From assembly GCA_947624155.1 (NCBI GenBank), contig CANQJB010000006.1, positions 1-53,524 of the forward strand: DNA of 53,524 nt, written 5' to 3'. Both the position numbers and the translations under genes were made by a program. This DNA is from an uncultured Clostridia bacterium. GTDB taxonomy: Bacteria > Bacillota > Clostridia > Oscillospirales > Ruminococcaceae. This document shows, in pieces, positions 17,493-22,256 of the stretch (position 1 is the stretch's first letter; each line of letters begins with the position of its first letter). The notes beneath the pieces are model-generated. The model saw nothing but the letters and a program-made list of their open reading frames with translations. It made no database searches and was not told the DNA's origin.

Positions 17493-18143
17493 ATGAATAC
17501 AAAAATTTCAGCGTCAATTCTCAGCGCCGATTTCGGCCGGCTCGCGGACGAGCTCAAACGCGCCGAAATCTCCGGCTGCGATATGATCCACTTCGACGTT
17601 ATGGACGGACATTTTGTCCCGAATCTGAGCTACGGCGTTCCGGTTCTGAAATCAATAAGAAAATACTGCTCTCTGCCCTTTGACGTACACCTTATGATAA
17701 CCGATCCCGGGCGGTTTATTGATGCCTTTGCCGACGCCGGCGCAGACCACATCACCTTCCATGAGGAGATCGAGGCCGACCCGATCGAAATAATCGAAAA
17801 GATTCGCTCGCGCGGGCTCACCGCCGGAATATCGGTCAAGCCGAAGACGCCGGTCGAAAGAATCTTTCCGCTTCTCGACAGGCTAGACATGGTTCTGATC
17901 ATGACCGTTGAGCCGGGCTTCGGCGGGCAGGGGTTTATTGAGGACACACTCGGGAAGATCTCAGCGCTAAGGGCGGAGATCACCCGCAGGGGGCTCGGGA
18001 CCGACATCGAGGTCGACGGCGGGATCGGATTCAACACCTCGCCGCGCGTCAGAGCCGCGGGGGCAAACGTTCTCGTCTCGGGCTCATATATCTTCAAGGC
18101 CGAGGACATGGCCGCGGCTGTCGCTTCAATGAGAAGAGTTTAG
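17493..18143 (+). CDS. rpe: Ribulose-phosphate 3-epimerase
   Basis: 216 residues, full length. The enzyme interconverts D-ribulose 5-phosphate and D-xylulose 5-phosphate in the pentose phosphate pathway. Typical blocks are KISASILSADFGRLADEL, MIHFDVMDGHFVPNLSYG with the metal-binding His and Asp, FDVHLMI, MTVEPGFGGQGF and IEVDGGIG. AGAGG precedes the ATG. It ends in TAG and overlaps the convergent MecA-like gene by 18 bp. Confidence 0.96.
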   Translation: MNTKISASILSADFGRLADELKRAEISGCDMIHFDVMDGHFVPNLSYGVPVLKSIRKYCSLPFDVHLMITDPGRFIDAFADAGADHITFHEEIEADPIEIIEKIRSRGLTAGISVKPKTPVERIFPLLDRLDMVLIMTVEPGFGGQGFIEDTLGKISALRAEITRRGLGTDIEVDGGIGFNTSPRVRAAGANVLVSGSYIFKAEDMAAAVASMRRV

Positions 18144-18443
18144 GACAGTTACCGCCCCGCTGCCGATCAGAACGCTGCCGTGCTCGGCGAGAAGCTCGCG
18201 GTAGAGATCGCCGATGCAGACCGCTTCGCTGTGCTCGCAGATCTCGGGCAGAAGGCGCTTCAGCTCCTTTGTTCTGACCGAAATTCCGAGGCAGAGTCTC
18301 CCGTTAAAATAGAGACTGCCGTTATTTACCCCTGCTCTTTCAAGGCAGCGGGCAAGGTTTTTCAGCGATTCTGCGCGGACAAGACACACCAGCGGCATCT
18401 CGGCGGGATATGCCCGCAGTCGGCGGCGCTTTTTCTCAATCAC
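18126..18443 (-). CDS. MecA C-terminal-domain-like small protein
   Basis: 105 residues starting at GTG, 8 bases after AAAGGGG. The pattern CLVRAESLKNLARCLERAGV, GSLYFNGRLCLGI, LPEICEHSE and LLAEHGSVLIGSGAVTVL resembles the C-terminal half of the adaptor protein MecA, which binds ClpC. The N-terminal substrate-binding half of MecA is absent. It is placed between rpe and the Rnf-like operon on the opposite strand. Assignment rests on spacing of hydrophobic and LY/EHG positions by eye, so it is tentative; it could be an unrelated small protein. Confidence 0.5.
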   Translation of the reverse strand: MIEKKRRRLRAYPAEMPLVCLVRAESLKNLARCLERAGVNNGSLYFNGRLCLGISVRTKELKRLLPEICEHSEAVCIGDLYRELLAEHGSVLIGSGAVTVLNSSH

Positions 18444-18479
18444 CGAATATCCCCTTTCGATAATTTATTAAGGACGGTA

Positions 18480-19793
18480 ATCTTTACGGCTAAAATCCCG
18501 ACAACCGAAAAATCCGAAAAGCTGCGCTATGCAAAGACTTCGGCGCTGCTGTTTACAATAGTTTTCATGGCGTTTTACTATTACGGCCTCCGCGCGGTGA
18601 TAGTCACCGCCGTTTCCGTCTTTTCGAGCTTTCTCGCGGACTATATCTGCTGCGCGGCGAGGCGGATCAAATTCGACTGGAGCGACGAGTCGCCGCTGAT
18701 GTCGGGGCTGCTGCTCGCGCTGTTGATGCCGGCGACGATCCCCTACACCGTTATGGCGTTTTCGGCGGCTTTTATGGCGATAGTCTGCAAGCACGCTTTC
18801 GGCGGCAACCGCAATCTGATATTCTGCCCGGTCTGCATCGCATATATTTTTACCGTTTTCTGTTTTCCGTCGGTAATTTTGAGATATCCGACGCCGGTGC
18901 CTTTCGGCGAGCTTTCTCTGACAAATACTGCGACCGACGCCGTTGCCCGCTCGTTCACCTATTATCTCGACAACGGAATGTCGACGACATTCGGCATTCT
19001 CGATCTGGTCTGGGGCAGGCTCGCGGGGCCGATGGGAAGCTCGGCGATTCTGATAATCATGATCTGCGCGATCGCGATGTATTTCTTTCACGATATTCCT
19101 GCGACGGCATTTTTTGCCGGTCTCGGCGGAAATATCCTTCTGAGCGTTCTCTATCCCGTCGGTGAAACCGGCTGGTATGCAGTCCTCAATTCCCTCGCTG
19201 CGGGGTCATATCTGTTTTCGCTGGTCTTTTTGGCCTGCGACCTGAGATATGTCCCGAAAAGGGCGTTTTCTCAGCTTATCTACGGGCTGCTTCTCGCGGT
19301 CGGATCATATCTGATCCGGCAGAACACCGGAATCGAGAACAGCGCAGTATTCACGATACCGATCCTCTGCATCTTCCGCGACGAGTTTGACCGCCTTTCC
19401 GACGCGCTTGAAAGGCTGCTCAGGTTCCTCTGGAAGTGGACAAAGATCATCGCGGCGTTTTTGAGAAAGAACCTTGTTATCGCGGCGGTATGGCTAGGAA
19501 AAAACATCAAAAACGGAGCGGTTGCGCTCGCGAGGCTGATTGCAAAGGGGTTCAATAAGCTTTGCGACTTTATCAGCGACAAGATAATCGAGGCGCAGAA
19601 GAAGCGCGCCGAGGCGAAAAAGTCAAGGGAAGAAGCTGAGAGCGCAGAGGAAAGCGTTCCCGGCGAAGCAGCTTCGGAAAGTGCGCCTGAACCAAACGCT
19701 CCGGAAGCGGAGACGGAAACCGCTCAGGAAGAAAAGCCGGAAAGCGAAGAACCCGAGGAAGAAACCGAACAGGAGGCCGGCGAAAATGAATGA
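18480..19793 (+). CDS. RnfD-like membrane protein without flavinylation motif
   Basis: About 437 residues. The membrane part (roughly 1-300) matches RnfD/NqrB-type subunits: YYYGLRAVIVTAVSVFSSFL, ESPLMSGLLLALLMPATIPY, CKHAFGGNRNLIFCPVCIAY and LVWGRLAGPMGSSA. In RnfD the FMN is bound to the Thr of an (S/T)xAT motif. The matching stretch here is TDAVARSFTYYLDNG, with no such motif. A basic then Glu-rich tail (about 300-437) is extra. No ATG or GTG lies near the conserved start. AAGGA sits 5 bases before an ATC at 18480, which would be a rare start codon. The frame is open further upstream, but only over the antisense MecA-like gene. Confidence 0.7.
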   Translation: MFTAKIPTTEKSEKLRYAKTSALLFTIVFMAFYYYGLRAVIVTAVSVFSSFLADYICCAARRIKFDWSDESPLMSGLLLALLMPATIPYTVMAFSAAFMAIVCKHAFGGNRNLIFCPVCIAYIFTVFCFPSVILRYPTPVPFGELSLTNTATDAVARSFTYYLDNGMSTTFGILDLVWGRLAGPMGSSAILIIMICAIAMYFFHDIPATAFFAGLGGNILLSVLYPVGETGWYAVLNSLAAGSYLFSLVFLACDLRYVPKRAFSQLIYGLLLAVGSYLIRQNTGIENSAVFTIPILCIFRDEFDRLSDALERLLRFLWKWTKIIAAFLRKNLVIAAVWLGKNIKNGAVALARLIAKGFNKLCDFISDKIIEAQKKRAEAKKSREEAESAEESVPGEAASESAPEPNAPEAETETAQEEKPESEEPEEETEQEAGENE

Positions 19794-20403
19794 AAAGATG
19801 TTTTTCCGCGACGCTGAGCGCGAGGGAATGCTGACAAGAAACCCGCTTTTTGCGAGCGGAGTTATAATCGCTCCGGCGGCCGCCGCCTGCACCGACTTTT
19901 ATTCCGCGGCGATACTCTCGGCTGTTTTTACCGCCGTCACCTTTGTCACCGTCGCGATTTGCAGATTTGTTCCCCGAAAAATCGTCTATACCGTTCGTAT
20001 TATATTATATACCCTCGTCGCTTCTTTAGTGTATGTACCGATACACCTCTTTTTCACAAGCGGCGACCTCGCGGAGATGTATTACGCGGTCGGGATATAT
20101 GCCCCTCTGCTTATCACCAACTCGCTTATCACTCTTCGCACCGAAACGAAGTTTTACCGCCTCTCGACCTCATATATGCTTAAGCTCGCGGCGTTTTATG
20201 TTATGGGCTATGACCTCGCGCTTCTGAGCTTCGGAGGGATAAGGGGAATTCTGACAAAAGGTACTGTTATGGGCGTAAAGGTACTCCCCTTTTCAATCCC
20301 CGCGCTTTCAAATCTTTTCGGCGGGTTTATCCTGCTCGCGGTGATAAGCGCGCTGTTCAGATGGATACTCCAGATCGTTTACGGAACATACGGAAAATCA
20401 TAA
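19786..20403 (+). CDS. RnfE-like membrane protein lacking both cluster cysteines
   Basis: 205 residues with about six membrane segments. It aligns with RnfE/RsxE from RNPLFASGVIIAPAAAACTD (usual NNxxLVQLLGLCPLLAVT) to YAVGIYAPLLITNSLITLRT (usual LGIFIPLIVTNCIxxGRAEA). Both cysteines that hold the intramembrane [2Fe-2S] cluster are replaced, by Ala29 and Ser113. The ATG overlaps the end of the RnfD-like gene by 8 bases, and AGGAGG lies upstream. This start is better than the longer basic reading in the same frame. Confidence 0.75.
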   Translation: MNEKMFFRDAEREGMLTRNPLFASGVIIAPAAAACTDFYSAAILSAVFTAVTFVTVAICRFVPRKIVYTVRIILYTLVASLVYVPIHLFFTSGDLAEMYYAVGIYAPLLITNSLITLRTETKFYRLSTSYMLKLAAFYVMGYDLALLSFGGIRGILTKGTVMGVKVLPFSIPALSNLFGGFILLAVISALFRWILQIVYGTYGKS

Positions 20404-20462
20404 CGCATATTTCGATAAATTTATTTTCCCCGGCAATGTAGAATAGAAAGGAACGTTAAGCC

Positions 20463-21038
20463 TTGACGCAGTTTTTTGAAGCTCTGCTCGCCGCTCTCGC
20501 AGCGGTCACGCTTGAAAATGTCATATTCACATCGGCGATCGGCACCTCGACACTGATCGAGTGCGCGAAGTCGCCGCGGCAGCTTCTGTCATTCGGCGCG
20601 TTTATCACCGAATTTTCGGTCCTTTCGAGCTTCCTCGCCTATTATGCCGAGGGCTGGCTCAAGACCGAGACATCGCGGCTGTTTTTGCAGAGCGTCTATG
20701 TCCTCTGCCTCGGGCTTGTTTATATCGTGACGCTGCTCGTGATTCGTCTAGTCGCGAAAAAGTGGTTTTCGTCATTAAAAAAATACGTTCACCTTACCGC
20801 CTTTAACTGCGCGGTCCTCGGCTGTCTGTTCAACAACGGAATCAGCGGGGCGCCGCTCGGGGAACGGCTGATATACGCCGCGGAAATAGGGGTAGGCTTC
20901 ATTCTCGCGACCTATCTTCTCGCAATCAACTACAAAAAGCTGTCGAGTAAAGACGTTCCGGTGTCATTTCGGGGATTTCCGGCTTCGGTTCTTTATATCG
21001 GCATTATCTCAATGATAGTTTACAGCATGAAAATCTAG
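20463..21038 (+). CDS. RnfA-like membrane protein lacking one cluster cysteine
   Basis: 191 residues with six predicted membrane segments, colinear with RnfA/RsxA. The first half-repeat LENVIFTSAIGTSTLIECAK aligns without gaps to [20 protein letters not shown], putting Ser29 at the cluster Cys. The second half HLTAFNCAVLGCLFNNG keeps Cys116. The end DVPVSFRGFPASVLYIGIIS matches the conserved VPxxFRG block. The start is TTG, 10 bases after AAAGGA. It is the third gene of the module, 59 bp after the RnfE-like gene. Confidence 0.75.
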   Translation: MTQFFEALLAALAAVTLENVIFTSAIGTSTLIECAKSPRQLLSFGAFITEFSVLSSFLAYYAEGWLKTETSRLFLQSVYVLCLGLVYIVTLLVIRLVAKKWFSSLKKYVHLTAFNCAVLGCLFNNGISGAPLGERLIYAAEIGVGFILATYLLAINYKKLSSKDVPVSFRGFPASVLYIGIISMIVYSMKI

Positions 21039-21053
21039 AAAGAAGTGGCAAAA

Positions 21054-22256
21054 ATGAAAAAGAGAAAAATCAAAAAGACAAAACCGATGTTCAAGAAAAA
21101 GCGCTCGCCCGCGCGCACCGCTCTTAACGTCTTCCTGATCGCCCTTTTGCTTATCGCGATCGCCTTTTTGGGTTACAGCGTCGGCAAACCGATCATGGAA
21201 TTTGTCAGCTCCCGCCCGAGCCGCGAGGCGAACGTTTCAACCGGCCCGACCGAGCCTTTGGAGCCTGCGACCTCGCCGACGACAGTCTCGGAAAAGCCGG
21301 TCACGACCACCGAGGCGCCGGTTTCCGAAGAGCCCGAAAAGGAGCTTTCAAGGCTTTATTTCGTCAAGCTGCCTCCGGCGCAGGAATTTGACGCCTGGCT
21401 GGACGAAAATATCGCCTATGCCACGCAGAACGGATATTACGGCCTTGTCGTCGAGCTTGTCGCCGACGGCGGAACGGTCGGATATAACACCGCGAGCGAA
21501 AAGGCGATCGCCTATTCCGCCGTCTCGCAGTATGCACTCGCCGACCTAAAAGCGGCCGCGCAGCGAATCTCCGACGCGGGTCTGCTGTCCTATGCTCGAA
21601 TCTCGGCGCTGAGCGACCATATCGTCAGCCGGATCGACAAGGGAATGTGCTATCTGTTTGAAAACTCGACCAGCACCTGGCTCGACAACTCGGTCTCGGC
21701 GGGCGGAAAATCCTGGATCACGCCTTTCAGCGACAGCTCGAAGGAATATATCTCGGGATTTGTCAGCGAGATCTCAGACGCGGGGTTCGCCGGAATTATC
21801 GCTGGTGAGCTGATCTTCCCACCGTTCAGGCGTTCCGACCTAGAATATGTCGGAGCATCGGTTCAGAGCCCGACGAGATATACCGCGCTCGCAGACTTCT
21901 CCAACTCGATTCAGGCGACGCTCGGCGAGGCAAAGAGCTATGCGATCGAGGTCGACGCGCTGGATATTCTTCGCGGAAGCGATGAAGTCCTGAACGACCC
22001 GTCGCTTCTGAACTGCAATACCGTTTATGTGCGTTACAGCTCCTCTGAGATAGGCGTCAGGGTCGAAATAACCGACGAAACCGAAATATCCTACGAGGGA
22101 CTGAGCGAGAACGACAAGCTCAAAGCAGTTTTCAAGAACGTCTCGGAGGCTCTCGCCGACAGCGGAAAGACCGTTATCCCCGCGGTCGAGGAGCAGTCGC
22201 AGGCAGACCTGCTCGTCAGCATGGGGTATGACGGGAAGCTGATTGTTATTTATTGA
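21054..22256 (+). CDS. Membrane-anchored glycoside-hydrolase-like protein (DUF4015-like)
   Basis: 400 residues from the ATG at 21054; an in-frame GTG 9 bases earlier is possible. The very basic N-terminus is followed by one membrane segment (ALNVFLIALLLIAIAFLGYS), a Pro/Thr-rich linker and an extracytoplasmic TIM-barrel-like domain. That domain includes ENIAYATQNGYYGLVVELVA, LKAAAQRISDAGLLSYARIS and ISDAGFAGIIAGEL. The pattern resembles putative glycosyl hydrolases of the DUF4015 type. It is directly downstream of the Rnf-like genes and probably in the same operon. No catalytic residues can be named with confidence. Confidence 0.55.
   Translation: MKKRKIKKTKPMFKKKRSPARTALNVFLIALLLIAIAFLGYSVGKPIMEFVSSRPSREANVSTGPTEPLEPATSPTTVSEKPVTTTEAPVSEEPEKELSRLYFVKLPPAQEFDAWLDENIAYATQNGYYGLVVELVADGGTVGYNTASEKAIAYSAVSQYALADLKAAAQRISDAGLLSYARISALSDHIVSRIDKGMCYLFENSTSTWLDNSVSAGGKSWITPFSDSSKEYISGFVSEISDAGFAGIIAGELIFPPFRRSDLEYVGASVQSPTRYTALADFSNSIQATLGEAKSYAIEVDALDILRGSDEVLNDPSLLNCNTVYVRYSSSEIGVRVEITDETEISYEGLSENDKLKAVFKNVSEALADSGKTVIPAVEEQSQADLLVSMGYDGKLIVIY

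Follow-up and report, generated by a model that had tools for sequence, protein, structure and literature searches.

An Rnf-related D-E-A membrane module of Clostridia that has lost the four-cysteine cluster site

Introduction

What could the membrane core of a redox pump do when it stands in the genome without the subunits that handle electrons? This question is raised by a locus in an uncultured Clostridia bacterium of the Ruminococcaceae (assembly GCA_947624155.1, contig CANQJB010000006.1, positions 1 to 53,524 of the forward strand; this whole stretch of 53,524 nucleotides is called the window here). Within 18480-22256, homologues of rnfD, rnfE and rnfA stand in a row with a gene for a DUF4015 protein, a group that we call the module:

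18480..19793, + strand: D', RnfD-like membrane protein, 437 residues counted from 18480; PF03116, 136 bits (cut-off 27.7)
19786..20403, + strand: E', RnfE-like membrane protein, 205 residues, its start overlapping the end of D'; PF02508, 64 bits (cut-off 23.8)
20463..21038, + strand: A', RnfA-like membrane protein, 191 residues, TTG start; PF02508, 66 bits (cut-off 23.8)
21045..22256, + strand: DUF4015 protein, 403 residues; PF13200, 39.4 bits (cut-off 27)

Judging from comparative sequence data, we give about an even chance to the reading that D', E' and A' come from the membrane part of an Rnf redox pump that was duplicated, lost its means of electron transfer and has since been retained in a different role, as a non-redox transporter or channel.

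Results

The three core proteins are clearly homologous to Rnf subunits. Profile searches matched D' to the solved RnfD 7zc6_D at 3.9e-42 (profile A4) and A' to the solved RnfA 9eri_A at 1e-32 (profile A2), and E', searched as a single sequence, matched the solved RnfE 7zc6_E at 1.2e-6. Their scores fall far short of the NCBIfam thresholds for the three subunits rnfD, rnfE and rnfA (D' 76 against 207 bits, E' 43 against 213, A' 55 against 229). The initial annotation, made from the letters of the window alone, had recognized the three homologues and had seen no gene for RnfB, RnfC or RnfG. Both observations hold: the Pfam matches lie over their cut-offs, and the RnfB, RnfC and RnfG of the same genome, used as queries against six-frame open reading frames (ORFs) of at least 40 residues over the whole window, gave no match. 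None of the four module genes was NqrF-like in a Pfam scan, no search aimed at nqrF having been made.

In canonical Rnf the [2Fe-2S] cluster is bound by Cys25 and Cys113 of RnfA and by Cys26 and Cys109 of RnfE (PMC9588780). The corresponding residues in the window are:

19870..19872, + strand: E-Ala29, where RnfE has its first cluster cysteine
20122..20124, + strand: E-Ser113, where RnfE has its second cluster cysteine
20547..20549, + strand: A-Ser29, where RnfA has its first cluster cysteine
20808..20810, + strand: A-Cys116, the sole ligand position that is still Cys in the window

These assignments had been made by eye, and alignment with canonical subunits and E. coli Rsx reproduced them. 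Cys stands in all four ligand columns in the canonical Rnf of the same genome, in E. coli Rsx and in all but one of six other canonical rows; the exception, L184, has different residues in two of the four columns.

Conservation was followed in 72 named loci, all of them read, which came from a scan of a genome collection with a 12-sequence D' profile. They were chosen by the D motif [HFY][AI]FGG[NKH]xN[LYI]I, so that D residues inside the motif are conserved by construction, a selection that touches neither E, A nor the four RnfD sites reported below. Families whose module carries an additional RnfC-like gene (C') lie outside this sample, and the named loci overlap with the genomes given G codes below. 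At the first RnfA ligand position the named loci have Asn (41) or Ser (27; n = 68), and at the second Cys (52), Ala (12), Ser (2) or Val (2; n = 68). The first RnfE position is Ala in 51, Gly in 16 and Ser, Val, Thr or Phe in one each (n = 71), and the second is Ser in 33, Pro in 17, Ala in 13, His in 7 and Gln in 1 (n = 71). Cys therefore occurs in 0/68 loci at the first RnfA position and in 0/71 at either RnfE position; in the other module set, which includes the window, it occurs in 0/31 rows at each of these three. The suggestion that A-Cys116 is a needed remnant ligand was rejected, as 16 of the 68 loci have no Cys there. Alternative cysteines at equivalent sites, a possibility raised by the initial annotation, are not found in the window: A-Cys116 is unconserved, and E-Cys59, a residue considered below, aligns with none of the four ligand positions. 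The four-cysteine cluster site is lost in the module.

The covalent flavin mononucleotide (FMN) motif (S/T)xAT, also noted earlier as missing, is found in none of 103 module D rows (D' of the window and 102 others, some genomes occurring in both row sets) and in four of five canonical RnfD rows compared. Placement of the FMN-bearing Thr column depends on the alignment, and the motif test does so only for the choice of loop. As a separate observation, the canonical RnfD of the window's own genome (L007, 6845-7795, - strand) reads SSPT and so fails the pattern too. The Glu-rich C-terminal tail described for D' is likewise present, with 25 D/E within residues 371-437; five relatives (L087, L089, L091, L092, L094) share a DTQEI motif in place of the Glu-rich run. 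The start of D' is unsettled, with no ATG, GTG or TTG at 18480, and window positions 18462-18500 hold AAGGA and then GTA ATC at the conserved start. Among relatives, the conserved start is GTG in L107-L109 and GTA in L111 and L112, and L114 and L085 have a nearby ATG.

The locus is conserved with its shared losses beyond the genus, a point that the initial annotation had proposed to check for a D-E-A-glycosidase arrangement. D, E, A and an adjacent DUF4015 gene are consecutive in 66 of the 72 named loci, and five of the other six end at a contig edge. The usual upstream neighbour, present in 70/72, is:

17493..18143, + strand: rpe (ribulose-phosphate 3-epimerase); PF00834, 244 bits

Genes for rnfC, rnfB and rnfG were seen in none of the 72 loci within the stretch around each. 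Most loci are labelled Oscillospiraceae, Ruminiclostridium, Ruminococcus or uncultured Clostridia, and a few Eubacterium, Roseburia or Bacteroides. The module was found in all 25 same-genus genomes sampled, with the order rpe-D-E-A-DUF4015 in 14/14 loci read and spoIVA nearby in 11 of these. In family f1, 22 of 26 genomes sampled have a module D by profile score, and loci were read in 17 of those 22. Other families of the order carry C' at the module, with or without DUF4015: the order is rpe-C'-D-E-A-DUF4015 in G028, G076 and G038 (split across two contigs in G038), and C'-D-E-A-DUF4015 in four f7 genomes (G030, G054, G118, G073), of which G054 has prmA on the upstream side of C'. Outside the order, a class sample of 291 genomes gave, among the matches listed, no D match above 178 bits (canonical level), a level at which a C'-type D could hide.

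Phylogeny places the module as a single lineage. In a D+E+A tree (38 rows, 717 columns) all 30 module rows form a single clade (100/99) against the Rnf rows that were sampled, the C'-bearing rows branching first or unresolved and the 21 C'-less rows forming a clade (98/97); an E+A tree of 79 rows again unites all module rows (Shimodaira-Hasegawa-like approximate likelihood ratio test, SH-aLRT, 99). Several module branches are long, which makes the inner order less sure. The ligand and flavin-motif losses are old and fixed. The nearest outgroup (83/97) is L184 (G042:C9:69000-80000), an rnf operon that has all of its six genes (B, C, D, G, E, A) and in which the columns of the first RnfA and the second RnfE ligand are altered, with a Cys one residue before the former, and the FMN motif reads TVAT. 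Because L184 is altered despite having all six subunits, the cluster site may have started changing ahead of the loss of the redox subunits.

We compared the ratio of nonsynonymous to synonymous substitution rates (dN/dS) with six same-genus relatives, the values being rough because dS is often >1. It was 0.098-0.187 for D, 0.088-0.198 for E, 0.120-0.255 for DUF4015 and 0.069-0.116 for A' (computable for five of the six), compared with 0.023-0.067 for canonical rnfA and 0.077-0.125 for canonical rnfE. The module genes are under purifying selection, and a pseudogene was rejected by values of 0.07-0.26. The initial annotation, which proposed a kept fold, lost redox wiring and a new use, is thus supported in part: the homology and the site losses stand, together with this constraint, and the use would be that of a channel or transporter.

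A complete canonical operon, rnfC-D-G-E-A-B followed by an apbE-like gene, lies on contig C15 of the window's genome, the only genome in which the full operon was read. Each of its Rnf subunits exceeds its own NCBIfam subfamily cut-off, and the ApbE match is under its cut-off. There are four PF02508 genes in each of the 25 same-genus genomes, and in the 24 other than the window's a module A' with 54-82% identity to that of the window occurs along with a second, canonical-type match. The initial annotation had named assembly of these subunits with a complete Rnf set as grounds for refutation, and half of this applies, since the same genome holds such a set. In the f7 genomes G030, G054, G118 and G073, which are 90-98% complete, the single RnfA-type and the single RnfD-type match are both the module's, and there is no FMN_bind (RnfG) match. 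In G030 the PF02508 genes are the module's two only. The rnfB matches of these four span the ferredoxin part alone (profile 103-184), although the score test is weak for rnfB, because the true rnfB of the window's genome (61.4 bits, covering profile 3-166) is also under the cut-off. Without an RnfG domain or a second A- or D-type match in these genomes, the module need not be accompanied by canonical Rnf, at least where it carries C', and a general role as partner of canonical Rnf was rejected. Family f7 is mixed: in G090, G105, G131, G145, G159 and G171 the A matches are at canonical level or below. One module-bearing genome, G315, has eleven FMN_bind matches, several of them in open frames of ~700 residues, a large set of proteins that are probably flavinylated.

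In the DUF4015 protein, hydropathy indicates 13 K/R in the first 28 residues, a single hydrophobic helix at 29-47 and then a large glycosidase-like domain. It matches the structure 4s1a_A at 2e-16 (profile A1 search), and its PF13200 match covers profile positions 15-186 of 313 only. Residues D191, D214, E242 and E314, candidates for the catalytic carboxylates of a glycoside hydrolase, are invariant across 26 DUF4015 sequences. The protein resembles DUF4015 (PF13200, PDB 4s1a) in scoring above the Pfam cut-off; it differs in being membrane-anchored and linked to D-E-A. An excerpt of PMC12700454 mentions DUF4015 without a functional clue.

Discussion

RnfA-E has been likened to alternating-access symporters, and RnfD/NqrB is kin to ammonium and urea transporters (PMC12174285), so that a core minus the cluster and the covalent FMN is a plausible transporter. 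D', E' and A' would still assemble like RnfD-RnfE-RnfA and would move an ion or a small solute without internal electron transfer. The ion path of Rnf itself is disputed, one model placing it in RnfD and another in RnfA-RnfE (PMC12174285); candidate routes in the module would be alternating access by A'-E', a D' channel, or both. The DUF4015 protein has one N-terminal hydrophobic helix as RnfG does, and with an outside domain it would take RnfG's place, which is free, except in the family that has no such gene; its domain would feed, sense or process a glycan or its product. A more specific proposal, put forward tentatively, is that the module represents a family of non-redox transporters inside the Rnf/Nqr superfamily: the alternating-access pair A-E and the D channel would operate without electrons, and a glycosidase-like domain that gates or feeds the pore may have replaced the swinging RnfG flavoprotein. 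The order of events, in a simple scheme, would have been duplication of rnf, change of the cluster site, disappearance of G and B and acquisition of DUF4015; after that, f1 would have lost C' and f24 DUF4015.

Several observations weigh against a non-redox transporter or channel of this kind. The six-gene Rnf of L184 has altered ligand columns, so that a change of the site does not by itself imply redox loss, and in a few distant relatives a Cys, seen by eye and unexplained, lies one residue from a ligand position. In one named locus (L124) D-E is followed by no A or DUF4015 within the following 6 kb; five f24 genomes (G047, G116, G086, G102, G242) have rpe-C'-D-E-A without an adjacent DUF4015 gene; no clue to a substrate was seen; and rpe is missing at the f7 loci. 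The retained residues and motifs that bear on cofactors count on the same side, and they lead to the first rival, that the module may still be a redox machine with other cofactors: riboflavin in D', perhaps a new metal site, and a 4Fe-4S C' feeding it in some families. We regard this as rather unlikely. The residues concerned are:

19239..19241, + strand: D-Asp254, counterpart of RnfD Asp248 (C. tetanomorphum)
19960..19962, + strand: E-Cys59, Cys in 99% of named-set rows; canonical Ile
20790..20792, + strand: A-His110, His in 100% of named-set rows; canonical Pro

Asp248 and Asn124 have been placed at the riboflavin and the postulated Na+ site (PMC9588780). The former is Asp in 71 of the 72 named loci, with one gap, and the latter is kept in 56/72, being Cys in the window; riboflavin binding could thus persist in D'. 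Asn90 and Glu185, placed further along the Na+ path near FMN (PMC9588780), are replaced in all 72 loci, by L/M and by T/A/S/N, respectively, with N in 5 and E in 4 rows of the 31-row set. A-His110, A-Tyr87, E-Cys59 and E-Phe48 are conserved at 99-100% in the named set, as a new metal site might require of the first and third; yet at the aligned columns the His is absent from L104, L105 and all C'-bearing rows, and the Cys from L096, L104, L105, L170 and, again, all C'-bearing rows. C' retains both 4Fe-4S motifs in 7/7 rows (four of them from one genus), and some C'-bearing members may accordingly be redox-active, judging by these motifs; C' is present, however, at 0/72 named loci and has no GxGGxGFP in 7/7 rows, a pattern that one of four canonical RnfC rows fails too.

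Slightly less probable still is a membrane platform, without transport, for the DUF4015 protein as an enzyme of the envelope that might take part in assembling the spore or the cell wall. The adjacency of the DUF4015 gene in the named loci, its being the sole DUF4015 match in the window's genome, and the nearness of spoIVA in the genus, with spoIIR downstream in L170, would fit this. The earlier suggestion of a scaffold for the glycosidase-like protein is nevertheless not the whole story, as the f24 loci have no adjacent DUF4015 gene, and DUF4015 matches are missing altogether from three of those five genomes and lie elsewhere in the other two. SpoIVA is in 16/16 module genomes of one set but also in 257/295 genomes of the order, including G055, G119, G172 and G309, whose D matches are at canonical level or absent; being this widespread, it does not discriminate. 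The module-bearing G028 (55% complete) has no SpoIVA.

We consider it improbable that the module is an alternative membrane core that the cell's canonical Rnf complex takes up in exchange for its own: the complete set in the window's genome and the four PF02508 genes throughout the genus would provide for this, yet A'E' has no [2Fe-2S] ligand set and the four f7 genomes hold the module with nothing to swap into by RnfG, A- or D-type matches. A decaying duplicate heading for loss, as the lost ligands and subunits might suggest, is very improbable given the dN/dS values and the retention of A' in 25/25 genus members.

Compared with known systems, the module has the D, E and A homologues and the order of their genes in common with the RNF complex RnfABCDGE (C. 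tetanomorphum 7zc6, A. woodii 9eri); it differs in having no B or G and, at the window locus, no C, in the loss of the four-Cys site and the covalent-FMN motif, and in the added DUF4015 protein. Na+-NQR has a comparable proposed origin, by rnf duplication with loss of rnfB and of the RnfC cofactor sites (PMC4014512), whereas it retains [2Fe-2S] and flavins and has NqrF (PMC12174285), and no electron input is seen at the module locus. Two-subunit Nqr/Rnf-like flavinylated complexes likewise have an RnfD/NqrB-like membrane part without a flavinylation site, together with an NAD-binding domain and an NqrC/RnfG-like subunit (PMC11334425); the module instead has the A/E pair and no RnfG. No system in which D-E-A is kept and the cluster site dropped appears in the excerpts of the RNF, NQR and two-subunit literature (PMC11334425, PMC4014512), and a literature search judged by titles and abstract openings, with preprints excluded and few subscription papers covered, found no description of the module.

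A natural D-E-A core without the cluster ligands and the covalent-FMN site offers a clean test case for electron-ion coupling, and if D'E'A' alone conducts, the conduit could be mapped without electron transfer. The families can also be arranged as an evolutionary series that begins with the six-gene Rnf, continues with C'-D-E-A (DUF4015 present or absent) and ends with D-E-A-DUF4015. If the module genes were annotated as Rnf, energy conservation would be over-predicted for gut Clostridia.

Between rpe and D', at 18126-18443 on the - strand of the window, lies a 105-residue ORF with a weak match to the C-terminal part of MecA alone (15.5 bits, cut-off 22.5); full-length MecA-like genes occupy the equivalent place in L161 and L170.

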